From Propioniciclava soli (lineage in GTDB: Bacteria; Actinomycetota; Actinomycetes; Propionibacteriales; Propionibacteriaceae): a stretch of 64,000 nt of DNA. The position numbers and the translations under genes were made by a program. Shown here one piece after another: positions 55,211 through 58,729 of the stretch. The DNA lies in contig NZ_JACYOT010000004.1 in NCBI RefSeq assembly GCF_014858005.1, positions 186,001 to 250,000 of the forward strand, given 5' to 3'. Numbering within the stretch: position 1 is the stretch's first letter; each line of letters starts with the position of its first letter. The notes beneath the pieces were generated by a model, which saw only the letters and a list, made by a program, of their open reading frames with translations, made no database searches and had not been told where the DNA came from.

Positions 55211-56539
55211 ATGAACGCTGTCGTGCTCGCCGTCCTGCTCATGCTCGTGCTCGCCTTCGCACGAGTCCACGTCGTGATGGCGCTGATCATCGGCGCCATC
55301 GTCGGCGGCCTGCTGGCCGGCCTGGGGCTGGCTGCGACCATGGAGTCGTTCACGGCCGGCATCGCCAACGGCGCATCGATCGCGCTCAGCTACGCCGTGC
55401 TCGGCGCGTTCGCCGTGGCGATCGCCCACTCGGGTCTGCCGCAGGCGTTCGCGGGCTGGGTGACCCGGCAGGCGGGTCCGGACGCCGGCGTCCGACGCAC
55501 GCGGTGGCTGAAGTGGGGCCTGCTGGGCGTGGTGCTCGCCGCCGCGGTGATGAGCCAGAACGTCGTGCCGATCCACATCGCGTTCATCCCGCTGCTGATC
55601 CCCCCGCTGCTGGTGGCGTTCAACCGGTTCGGGATCGACCGCCGCGCGGTGGCGTGCATCCTGACGTTCGGCCTCGTCACGACCTACATGTACCTGCCCT
55701 ACGGCTTCGGCAACGTTTTCCTCAACGAGATCCTGCTCGGCAACATCTCCCAGGCCGGGCTCGACACGACGGGGATCAACATCCTCCAGGCCATGGGCAT
55801 CCCCGCCCTCGGCATGGTGGCGGGCCTGCTCGTGGCGGTCTTCGTCACCTACCGGCGGCCCCGGGCCTATGCCGACCTGCCGGTCGCGGGGGAGGAGGAC
55901 ACCCCCGCCGTGGGCCCCGTCAGCGGGTACCGCATCGCGGTGGCGCTGGTGGCCGTGGTGCTGGCGCTGGTGATCCAGATCGTGGCGGACTCCCTGCTGC
56001 TGGGGGCGCTCGTTGGCTTCGCGGTGTTCCTGGCCACCGGGGTGGTGCGTTGGGGCGAGTCGGGTTCGGTCTTCAACCGCGGCATCCAGATGATGGCGAT
56101 GATCGGGTTCATCATGATCGCCGCCCAGGGCTTCGCGCAGGTGATGCAGGATTCCGGGCAGGTCGAGCCCCTCGTCACGGCCACCGCCCAGGTGTTCGGC
56201 GACAACAAGGCGATGGCGGCGTTCGCGATGCTGCTCGTGGGCCTGCTGGTCACGATGGGCATCGGGTCGTCGTTCTCGACGCTCCCCATCATCACGACGA
56301 TCTACGTGCCGCTCTGCCTCACCCTGGGGTTCTCGCCGCTGGCCACGGTGGCGCTCATCGGCACCGCGGGGGCGCTCGGCGACGCCGGGTCGCCGGCGTC
56401 CGACTCGACGCTGGGGCCCACCGCGGGGCTCGCGGCCGACGGGCAGCACGACCATGTGCGCGACACGGTGATCCCGACATTTCTGCACTACAACATCCCG
56501 CTCCTGCTCGCCGGGTGGGTTGCGGCCCTCGTGTTGTGA
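55211..56539 (+). CDS. Na+/H+ antiporter family transporter (NhaC-like/Na_H_antiport_2)
   Basis: 442 aa with about 11 membrane helices. SQNVVPIHIAFIPLLIPP and the GTAGALGDAGSPASDST segment near the C-terminus are typical of this ion-transporter group. Usual description is Na+/H+ antiporter family; some members may move organic acids or amino acids. ATG 55211 is preceded by GGAG. The trpS promoter overlaps the space directly after its stop. Confidence 0.85.
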   Translation: MNAVVLAVLLMLVLAFARVHVVMALIIGAIVGGLLAGLGLAATMESFTAGIANGASIALSYAVLGAFAVAIAHSGLPQAFAGWVTRQAGPDAGVRRTRWLKWGLLGVVLAAAVMSQNVVPIHIAFIPLLIPPLLVAFNRFGIDRRAVACILTFGLVTTYMYLPYGFGNVFLNEILLGNISQAGLDTTGINILQAMGIPALGMVAGLLVAVFVTYRRPRAYADLPVAGEEDTPAVGPVSGYRIAVALVAVVLALVIQIVADSLLLGALVGFAVFLATGVVRWGESGSVFNRGIQMMAMIGFIMIAAQGFAQVMQDSGQVEPLVTATAQVFGDNKAMAAFAMLLVGLLVTMGIGSSFSTLPIITTIYVPLCLTLGFSPLATVALIGTAGALGDAGSPASDSTLGPTAGLAADGQHDHVRDTVIPTFLHYNIPLLLAGWVAALVL

Positions 56540-56549
56540 GGCGACCCGG

Positions 56550-56555
56550 TAGGGT
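56550..56555 (+). promoter_or_regulatory. trpS promoter -10 box
   Basis: TAGGGT, 7 bp before ATG 56563 of the leader peptide. The mRNA probably begins at the leader ATG, so the leader peptide would be translated without a ribosome site. Confidence 0.5.
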
Positions 56556-56562
56556 GGCTGTC

Positions 56563-56592
56563 ATGAAGCAGCGGGGTGCGTGGCAGCCGTGA
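56563..56592 (+). CDS. trpS leader peptide MKQRGAWQP
   Basis: Nine-codon ORF directly upstream of trpS, ATG 56563 to TGA 56590-56592, with one Trp codon (TGG 56581-56583) close to its end. The stop lies inside the left arm of hairpin 1, and a terminator-like hairpin follows, so ribosome position on this ORF can govern folding. Its coding status is inferred from position, the Trp codon and the promoter spacing. Confidence 0.6.
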   Translation: MKQRGAWQP

Positions 56593-56602
56593 TGACGGCT
56601 GC
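56583..56602 (+). promoter_or_regulatory. Attenuator hairpin 1 (segments 1-2)
   Basis: GCAGCCGT (56583-56590), loop gatg, ACGGCTGC (56595-56602): an 8-bp stem that starts at the last base of the Trp codon. Segment 2 (ACGGCT, 56595-56600) can instead pair with GGCCGT at 56622-56627, one arm of the terminator. Confidence 0.6.
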
Positions 56603-56619
56603 TTGATCGACCTTGCACG

Positions 56620-56644
56620 ACGGCCGTCCAGCGGGCGGCCGTTT
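56620..56644 (+). terminator. Attenuator terminator of trpS (segments 3-4)
   Basis: ACGGCCG (56620-56626) pairs with CGGCCGT (56636-56642) around a 9-nt loop, followed by TTC (56643-56645; TTT at 56642-56644). It lies 37 bp before the trpS start. It would form when segment 2 is covered by a ribosome at the leader stop codon, and be prevented when a ribosome stalls on the Trp codon. Confidence 0.55.
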
Positions 56645-56681
56645 CGCATGCTCGCGGGACTTCCAGAACAGGAGACCTTCC

Positions 56682-57854
56682 ATGACCGACCAGGTCACCA
56701 CGACGGACACCACTCAGGACACCACCGAGGACGCGACCCAGGACGCCCATCAGGCGGACGCCGCGGCCGACGCGCTGGCGTCCTCGACGTCGGAGGCGTC
56801 CCTGCGGCGCTCCGAGCAGCGCAGCCGCGCCATCGAGGAGCAGATCGCGAAGGACCCATCGGGCTTCCGGATGCTCACCGGGGATCGGCCCACCGGGCAC
56901 CTCCACATCGGCCACTACTTCGGCTCGTTGATGAACCGGCTGCGGTTGCAGGAGGCGGGCGTCGAAACCCTCATCCTGGTGGCCGACTACCAGGTGATCG
57001 CCGACCGGGACGGCACCGGCCCGCTGCGCGAGCGGGTGCAGTCGCTGGTGACCGACTACCTGTCGATCGGCATCGACCCGGCCCGGACCACCATCTTCGC
57101 CCACAGCCAGGTGCCGGCGCTGAACCAGCTGATGCTGCCGTTCCTGTCGCTCGTGACCGACTCCGAGCTGTACCGCAACCCCACCGTCAAGGCCGAGCAC
57201 GAGGCCACGGGCGGCCGGCCCATGTCGGGGCTGCTGCTCACCTACCCCGTCCACCAGGCCGCCGACATCCTGTTCTGCAAGGCCAACCTCGTGCCCGTCG
57301 GCAAGGACCAACTGCCGCACCTGGAGCAGACTCGGGTGGTGGCCCGGCGCTTCGACGAGCGATACGGGCGTATTCAGGCGGATACACCCGTCTTCCCGCA
57401 GGCGGAGGCGCTGCTCTCGTCGGGCTCCCTGGTTCTCGGCACGGACGGCACGAAGATGAGCAAGAGCCGGGGCAACACCGTCGAGTTGCGGATGACCGCC
57501 GACGAGACAGCCAAGGTGCTCAAGCGCGCGGTGACGGATTCCGACCGCTTCATCACCTACGACCCCGCGGGCCGCCCCGAGGTGGCGAACCTCCTGACGA
57601 TCGCCGGCCTGTGCACGGGTCGCGACCCGGGTGACATCGCCGCCGAGATCGGCAACGGAGGCGGCGGGGGACTCAAGAAGTACCTCATCGAGGTGTTGAA
57701 CGAGACCCTCGCCCCCATCCGGGCGCGGCGCGCCGAACTCGAGGCCGCCCCCGACCACGTCATGGCCGTGCTCCGCGAGGGCAATGCGCGGGCCAACGCC
57801 ATCGCCGACGCCACGTTGGGCGAGGTGCGCGAGGCGATGGGGATGGCGTACTGA
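56682..57854 (+). CDS. trpS: Tryptophan-tRNA ligase with a disordered N-terminal extension
   Basis: 390 aa class I aminoacyl-tRNA synthetase. The HIGH signature is GHLHIGHY near residue 70 and KMSKS is KMSKSRGN near residue 258. Typical TrpS is about 330-340 aa; here the first 45 residues are Thr/Asp/Ala-rich (TTDTTQDTTEDATQD) and probably disordered. ATG 56682 has AGGAGA upstream. Preceded by a Trp-codon leader peptide and terminator. Its stop overlaps the next ATG. Confidence 0.95.
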   Translation: MTDQVTTTDTTQDTTEDATQDAHQADAAADALASSTSEASLRRSEQRSRAIEEQIAKDPSGFRMLTGDRPTGHLHIGHYFGSLMNRLRLQEAGVETLILVADYQVIADRDGTGPLRERVQSLVTDYLSIGIDPARTTIFAHSQVPALNQLMLPFLSLVTDSELYRNPTVKAEHEATGGRPMSGLLLTYPVHQAADILFCKANLVPVGKDQLPHLEQTRVVARRFDERYGRIQADTPVFPQAEALLSSGSLVLGTDGTKMSKSRGNTVELRMTADETAKVLKRAVTDSDRFITYDPAGRPEVANLLTIAGLCTGRDPGDIAAEIGNGGGGGLKKYLIEVLNETLAPIRARRAELEAAPDHVMAVLREGNARANAIADATLGEVREAMGMAY

Positions 57855-58729
57855 TGGCGACGTCGGTGGCAACCGAGGCGGAGTGGCTCATCAGCACCGC
57901 CACCACCCGGCGCGCGGTGTGGAGCGCCGTGGCCGTGTTCGGGTTCGGCGCCGCCGCGGTGGCGGCCGTGGCGGACGCCGTGCGCGCCCCGAACGTGCCG
58001 AGCATCGTGCTGGCCGTGATCGTGGTGTCGTTGCTGGCCATGGCCGTGGTGCTCGCCGCGGAGGCGGTCGCGTCCGGCATCGTGCAGGTGAGTTCGGCGG
58101 GCTACGCCATGCTGGGGCGTCGGCGTCCCTGGTCGGACGTGCTGGCGCTGGGCACCGGGCGCATCGAGGGGCGCGACGCTGCGGTCGTCGCCGTGCGGGG
58201 CGAGGCCGACGACCCGGTCGACCAGGACGTGCTGGCCGGCTTCACCGAGGCCGAGACCGAACGGGTCGTGGCCACGCTCCGCGCGCGGGCCGGGGCCCTC
58301 CCGGGCTTCGCCGAGGTGGTCGTGCCGGCCGATTGGTGGGCCCACGCCGAGGCGGAGGCCGATCGGGCCGCCGCCGTCGTCGTGGCCACGAGCGGACGCG
58401 AGCCCCTCGCCCGCCAGCGGGTGCCGTTCGGTTTCGGGACGCTGGTGGACACCGTGCGCCTCGACTACGGGGTCACGCCGTCCGGCGAGGAGGTCGCCCT
58501 CTACGCGCGTCACGGTCTGGATCTCGGCGTCGTGGCCCAGGGCCGCCGCTGGCTGCGCCAGACCAAGAAGCGACGCTCGGTGGATCCGGCGACCCAGGTC
58601 GGGCGGCTGTTCGAGGACCACACGGTGCGGGTGGTGCCGGGCCGAGCCGGCGGGTTCGACCGCCTGGTCGTGGAGACCGCCGACGGCGCCAAACTGGTGT
58701 TCAACGCCGAGGAGCCCGACCGGTTCTGA
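57854..58729 (+). CDS. Membrane-anchored hypothetical protein
   Basis: 291 aa. Two membrane helices near residues 22-70 are followed by a long soluble part with strands such as LFEDHTVRVVPG and a closing LVFNAEEPDRF. No recognised family. It is translationally coupled to trpS (TGATG), so it is co-regulated with it. It converges with the DEAD-box gene across 34 bp. Confidence 0.65.
   Translation: MATSVATEAEWLISTATTRRAVWSAVAVFGFGAAAVAAVADAVRAPNVPSIVLAVIVVSLLAMAVVLAAEAVASGIVQVSSAGYAMLGRRRPWSDVLALGTGRIEGRDAAVVAVRGEADDPVDQDVLAGFTEAETERVVATLRARAGALPGFAEVVVPADWWAHAEAEADRAAAVVVATSGREPLARQRVPFGFGTLVDTVRLDYGVTPSGEEVALYARHGLDLGVVAQGRRWLRQTKKRRSVDPATQVGRLFEDHTVRVVPGRAGGFDRLVVETADGAKLVFNAEEPDRF

Follow-up and report, generated by a model that had tools for sequence, protein, structure and literature searches.

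The tryptophanyl-tRNA synthetase gene (trpS) in the window, the 64,000-base stretch of DNA analysed here from a 3.8 Mb genome (G000, contig C34), is very probably controlled by a ribosome-mediated transcription attenuator. This reading comes from the sequence, in which a short open reading frame (ORF) with a Trp codon, its conservation, a set of alternative RNA pairings, covariation of the 3:4 stem and the spacing of the elements were computed. The initial annotation had interpreted the region in this way, and leader conservation, segment logic and the 3:4 covariation all argue for that interpretation.

A short leader ORF with a Trp codon precedes trpS

The trpS gene (56682-57854, plus strand) encodes a protein of 390 aa that matched NCBIfam TIGR00233, tryptophan--tRNA ligase (217.3 bits, cut-off 176.75), and Pfam PF00579. 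The protein had one match in its own genome, and a second PF00579 gene, on contig C8, was taken to be a putative tyrS. The gene order in the window is glutamate dehydrogenase, a PHP-domain gene, an antiporter gene, the leader, trpS, another gene and, on the opposite strand, a DEAD-box helicase gene. The antiporter gene belongs to the Na+/H+ antiporter family (PF03553; 55211-56539) and lies between the PHP gene and the leader, with its stop codon at 56537-56539. The gene after trpS (57854-58729) gave no match in Pfam or NCBIfam; counterparts that were 50-55% identical were found in five of the eight congener loci searched.

A nine-codon ORF with a TGG had been described between a TAGGGT box and trpS, and all of the described elements were found where the initial annotation had placed them. 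The box (56550-56555, plus strand) is a predicted -10 element of a promoter, 7 nt ahead of the leader ATG. The ORF, MKQRGAWQP (trpL-like; 56563-56592, plus strand), starts with the ATG at 56563, ends with the stop codon at 56590-56592 and has similar leaders in relatives. When both strands of the 64,000 bases were scanned for TANNNT followed after 4-9 nt by an ORF of 5-32 codons that starts with ATG or GTG, the trpS leader was the single match. We place the transcript start at or near the leader ATG, which would make the leader leaderless; the promoter itself is likewise predicted. Consistent with this, nearly all leaders have a TANNNT box 6-7 nt upstream of the start codon (pattern search with spacers of 3-10 or 4-9 nt), and sections of PMC8079986 give a comparable -10-to-start distance for leaderless genes of Streptomyces. 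The sole regulatory Trp codon of the leader is the TGG at 56581-56583 (plus strand). It is preceded by GCG, at a position where most relatives have a second TGG. The TGG itself is invariant in 21 of 21 aligned leaders, which were selected for containing a Trp codon.

Downstream of the Trp codon, four plus-strand segments offer pairings that are mutually exclusive, and all three helices (1:2, 2:3 and 3:4) fold in the window leader. Segment 1 (56582-56590) pairs with 56595-56603 (-16.9 kcal/mol). This 1:2 stem begins, as described earlier, at the Trp codon, its first paired base being the second base of TGG (56582). Segment 2 (GACGGCTGCT, 56594-56603) can pair with segment 1, 3 or 4; its alternative pairing with segment 3, also part of the earlier description, was recovered as a helix of 56594-56601 with 56621-56628 (-14.1 kcal/mol for the stretch). 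Segments 3 (56619-56629) and 4 (56633-56643) form the 5' and 3' arms of a predicted terminator stem of -20.3 kcal/mol. The TTT that had been placed after this stem is present at 56642-56644, but two of the three T already lie within the stem, leaving a short T run at its end. For the whole leader RNA, the folding z-score was -3.2, and one of 200 shuffles folded equally well.

Ribosome position is predicted to decide between antiterminator and terminator

Transcription would begin with the leader ATG or right beside it, and a ribosome would translate MKQRGAWQP. With ample Trp-tRNA, the ribosome would reach the stop codon (56590) and cover segment 2, the 3:4 terminator would form and most transcripts would stop short of trpS. 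A shortage of charged Trp-tRNA would stall the ribosome with TGG (56581) in the A site, where it would cover segment 1 only. Segment 2 would then pair with segment 3 (or with segment 4 in the full-length fold), no terminator would form and trpS would be made. We infer the transcript start, the translation of the leader, the termination and the response to Trp-tRNA.

The effect of ribosome position on the remaining RNA was computed with a footprint that was assumed to span 12 nt, counted from the base that opens the A-site codon. With the ribosome at TGG, segment 2 was free and an antiterminator of -14.1 kcal/mol could form before segment 4 was transcribed, whereas with the ribosome at the stop codon, 9 nt from the start of the Trp codon, an antiterminator of only -2.8 kcal/mol remained. 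These values agree with the segment logic first proposed, that a stalled ribosome frees segment 2 to block the terminator. In the full-length RNA, the minimum-energy fold of the stalled state had segment 2 on segment 4 without the 3:4 helix (-24.0), and the 3:4 helix folded when the ribosome was at the stop codon (-23.6).

The same computation was carried out on 32 of 37 Trp leaders, the other five having no hairpin under the scan rule of at least two T within six bases after the stem. The medians were -14.1 for the stalled state and -2.9 at the stop codon; the energies of L004, L087 and L209, for which the script did not pick the conserved or expected hairpin, are unreliable. At most 5 of 100 shuffles folded as well as the free stretch in 19 of the 32 leaders, and more than 5 of 100 did so in the other 13. 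The interval between the last Trp codon and the stop was 9 nt in fifteen leaders, 21 nt in eleven, 12 nt in four, and 24 nt and 30 nt in one each.

Trp codons are enriched in leaders upstream of trpS

Conservation of the short ORF and its TGG in relatives had been set beforehand as a check, and it was borne out. We collected 151 non-redundant trpS upstream regions of at least 200 nt, from named genomes (the best 80 of 531) and further relatives. A leaderless short ORF of any content was present in 38 of the 151 (dinucleotide shuffles: mean 10.2, maximum 20 in 200). Such an ORF contained Trp in 37 regions (mean 2.3, maximum 8 in 200), which come from related genomes and are not independent events, and contained TrpTrp in 31 (mean 0.035, maximum 1 in 200), the doublet being absent from six of the 37 leaders. 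Among doublets of all amino acids, Trp was the most enriched (31 versus 0-0.035), followed by Arg (14 versus 2.2), and some others were slightly above shuffles. The Arg doublets may be explained by the Arg that follows Trp in many leaders. The strict leader rule was unmet in 114 of the 151 regions, so that the element is either patchy in its distribution or, in part, missed.

Within the genus, a covariance model of the element matched 10 of 13 genomes and gave no match in three. Eight of the ten leaders carry TrpTrp and two carry one Trp, namely that of the window and MKHRGSWRRHDGCR of G008. The initial annotation had proposed control by one Trp codon; this describes the window, where one TGG is present, but not the rule in the genus. 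Since TrpTrp prevails, the window's single codon probably arose by local reduction from the two-codon form. Part of PMC1183508 argues that attenuator sensitivity increases with the number of regulatory codons, and by that argument the one-Trp leader of the window would be expected to respond less sharply.

Covariation supports the 3:4 stem

To score covariation, leaders were aligned with MAFFT and the structures were written from L084. Of 25 first matches, 23 were folded (L050, a probable chance match, and L094, a copy of L011, were set aside); 22 remained after removal of L054 and 21 after removal of L024 (alignment A1). The alignment has visible misplacements in L009, L092 and L093, and the shuffles used here ignore the relatedness of the sequences. 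Across the 21 leaders, helix 3:4 had two-sided changes at five of ten pairs with 90.5% of cells paired, and helix 1:2 had them at two of six pairs with 73.0% of cells paired. Taken together, the two helices gave a covariation score of 0.189 against a shuffle mean of 0.129, reached by none of 500 shuffles; sliding the partners by 1-3 columns gave 0.126 at most. Two-sided changes at seven pairs were reached by two of 500 shuffles, with the +3 slide also giving seven. For further pair types, which numbered 16, 96 of 500 shuffles did as well, and the +2 and +3 slides gave more (22 for +3). For helix 2:3, 91.8% of cells were paired, versus at most 50.0% when slid. None of its seven pairs showed a two-sided change in the 21 leaders, and 221 of 500 shuffles reached its pairing. 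Its core, GACGG/CCGTC, hardly varies, so that covariation neither supports nor contradicts this helix, whose retention is indistinguishable from plain sequence constraint. In this alignment, covariation thus backs 3:4 and, less so, 1:2, with 2:3 retained but invariant.

How the 3:4 stem would act is less certain, because the T run is short. The same layout may lack an efficient intrinsic terminator and act mainly by other means, for example via Rho or RNA decay after ribosome release. The window terminator has only three T, and in most of the 32 leaders the number is as low as 2-4; hairpins without a uridine-enriched sequence are described for the trpS leader of S. lividans in sections of PMC8079986, and predicted Rho-independent terminators are fewest in Actinobacteria according to part of PMC2965389. 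We nevertheless judge this variant unlikely, as the stem is strong and covarying and is followed by TT or more in 18 of the 21 aligned leaders.

Natural variants of the locus within the genus

Four congeners differ from the window in ways that bear on the attenuator. In G003, an attenuator with the leader MHERLRWWRP (72.5 bits; L150/L210, G003:C5:84901-84990, minus strand) directly precedes a trpS whose product belongs to another subfamily and shares 33-36% identity with the TrpS of the window. The locus is the same, with upstream neighbours matching those of the window (glutamate dehydrogenase 63.5% and PHP gene 57.8% identical) and, beyond trpS, a helicase 79.3% identical to the window's. 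In G004, the other TrpS type (87% identical to that of G003) follows the PHP gene without a leader. Because the G003 leader resembles the leaders of the genus, it was probably retained rather than imported with the new gene. A leader before an exchanged synthetase is the most interesting by-product of this analysis.

Two further congeners appear to have lost the leader. G006 (L086, G006:C76) has the window's TrpS type, preceded by a -10-like box, two bases and then GGCGGCCGTTTGCG, which resembles segment 4 and its tail; there is no leader. The arrangement, about 20-42 bases upstream of the trpS ATG, looks like the scar of a deletion that removed the leader together with segments 1-3. In G007 (L090), no leader was found ahead of trpS. 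Such losses would leave trpS on.

These loci also bear on a plainer explanation, that the stems are the ordinary terminator of the upstream antiporter gene together with chance GGCC repeats, the short ORF being untranslated. The region is indeed GC-rich and repetitive and follows the antiporter stop codon. However, the leader is kept in G003, where it directly follows the PHP gene, and in G009 (L212), where a gap of about 0.1 kb between the PHP gene and trpS leaves no room for the antiporter, whose absence there is read from the spacing. Moreover, the -10-like box is located after the upstream stop codon, and a plain terminator cannot yield the enrichment of Trp and TrpTrp. We consider this explanation very improbable.

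Searches with covariance models

A covariance model was built from the 21 leaders, the window's included. The window leader scored 84.4 bits (E 2.4e-14) and the next best place in its own genome 25 bits. The search of loci with this model covered the window and 74 of 112 loci, those omitted being mainly copies and Actinomycetaceae-type loci. Across 198 genomes, the model matched in 41, non-leaders included. Four weak matches (G011, G195, G028 and G177) were inspected and rejected as other terminators or coding sequence; the remaining weak matches of this search were inspected where they fell inside fetched trpS regions. Searching a plasmid collection gave no match, and the loci of the two chorismate-binding enzymes of the genome under study (L227 and L228) yielded no Trp leader that fits the pattern scanned for in the window.

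None of the Rfam covariance models, those of the T-box and the Trp leader among them, reached its gathering score, either in the window or at any of 16 related loci. Two matches in all appeared at E up to 10, a hammerhead (E 0.26, 17.9 bits, gathering 37) and STnc70, both weak and on the minus strand, and both were taken as chance. Direct sensing of Trp or tRNA by a riboswitch, T-box or TRAP-type site instead of a stalled ribosome deserves hardly any credence in view of these Rfam results and of what is seen to be conserved, namely the Trp codon together with the paired segments, even though the controlled gene is a synthetase and most synthetase genes of Firmicutes are T-box controlled (sections of PMC1262725).

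The element occurs beyond the genus and before two types of TrpS

At the level of the order, the model matched 24 of 391 genomes (E up to 1e-4). Twenty-three of these belong to the family; the one model match outside it is in G259. At the level of the class, 15 of 394 genomes matched (E up to 1e-3). Of the 14 matches besides that of the window's own genome, ten precede trpS (one of them, L225, in two pieces only), one precedes trpD and three are in coding sequence (L216, L217 and L222). The trpD match (L223, G645:C466:8625-8711) is a similar leader, MIKRVDGWWPAS, with an attenuator, before a gene for anthranilate phosphoribosyltransferase (TIGR01245, 324.1 bits).

In genus g58 (genomes of 6.1-7.8 Mb), the leaders MMTRTNSQCWWAA, MTTRTCTQLWWPA and MTSRMCIQCWWAA precede TrpS proteins of the G003 type, 44-45% identical to that of G003 and 34.6-36.1% identical to that of the window. 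In a fourth g58 genome, the leader is MTSSSCLNWWRPS and the TrpS that follows it is of the window's type (62% identical). The first three leaders are close to TrpL2 of S. lividans TK24 (MMTRTCTQLWRAA) as given in sections of PMC8079986 and look like the same leader. Because of this resemblance, the g58 genomes are probably Streptomyces.

Together, the exchanged TrpS of G003, the occurrence of the element before either TrpS subfamily in other actinobacteria and its single occurrence before trpD raise the possibility of a portable Trp-tRNA sensor, a leader-attenuator module that persists as the downstream synthetase is replaced. We hold this idea with even confidence for and against.

Relation to known attenuators

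Vecchione and Sello (2010; cited in PMC4787780) reportedly found that a TrpRS gene, auxiliary and antibiotic-resistant, is subject to ribosome-mediated attenuation. That gene, of S. coelicolor, encodes an auxiliary synthetase, whereas the trpS of the window encodes a protein with a single match in its genome. The trp leader of E. coli differs in governing biosynthesis, in its longer T run and in possessing a ribosome-binding site. Its four-segment logic, modelled in PMC1183508, is shared by the trpS leader of the window.

Closer parallels exist in actinobacteria. Sections of PMC1262725 (2005) predict classical attenuators upstream of the Corynebacterium and Streptomyces trp operons, as well as of S. 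avermitilis trpS2. As in the window, these have UGG codons, an antiterminator and a terminator sharing complementary GGCC-type triples, and a GC-rich terminator; the trp operons differ in having double or triple UGG and poly-U tracts, compared with one UGG and three T here. TrpL2 of S. lividans, described in sections of PMC8079986, is likewise a leaderless leader with one Trp before trpS and is followed by two hairpins. The window has a leaderless Trp leader directly before trpS and a detectable sequence or structure relation to leaders of the TrpL2 kind, which places it among them; its leader sequence and spacing differ from theirs.

Synthetase control by a leaderless single-Trp leader had been presented in the initial annotation as a departure from trp-operon attenuation. 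The sections of PMC8079986 and PMC1262725 cited above already record synthetase control in Streptomyces, as well as a leader that is leaderless and one with only one Trp codon. Propionibacteriaceae do not appear in the compared sections of PMC1262725, and in the open-access literature searched we found no paper on a leader peptide with attenuation in this family. New here are the spread of the leader in Propionibacteriaceae, a congener with a different TrpS type behind the leader at the same locus, and a congener with a segment-4-like remnant only.

These results indicate that trpS control through ribosome stalling in a leader, recorded in Streptomyces, extends to many Propionibacteriaceae and some other actinobacteria, through an attenuator that gives no Rfam match where tested. 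The natural variants, with one or two Trp codons, with the leader missing or with the enzyme exchanged, make questions about attenuator sensitivity testable. Should regulation be passed on independently of the enzyme, the leader-attenuator module would count as an evolutionary unit in itself.
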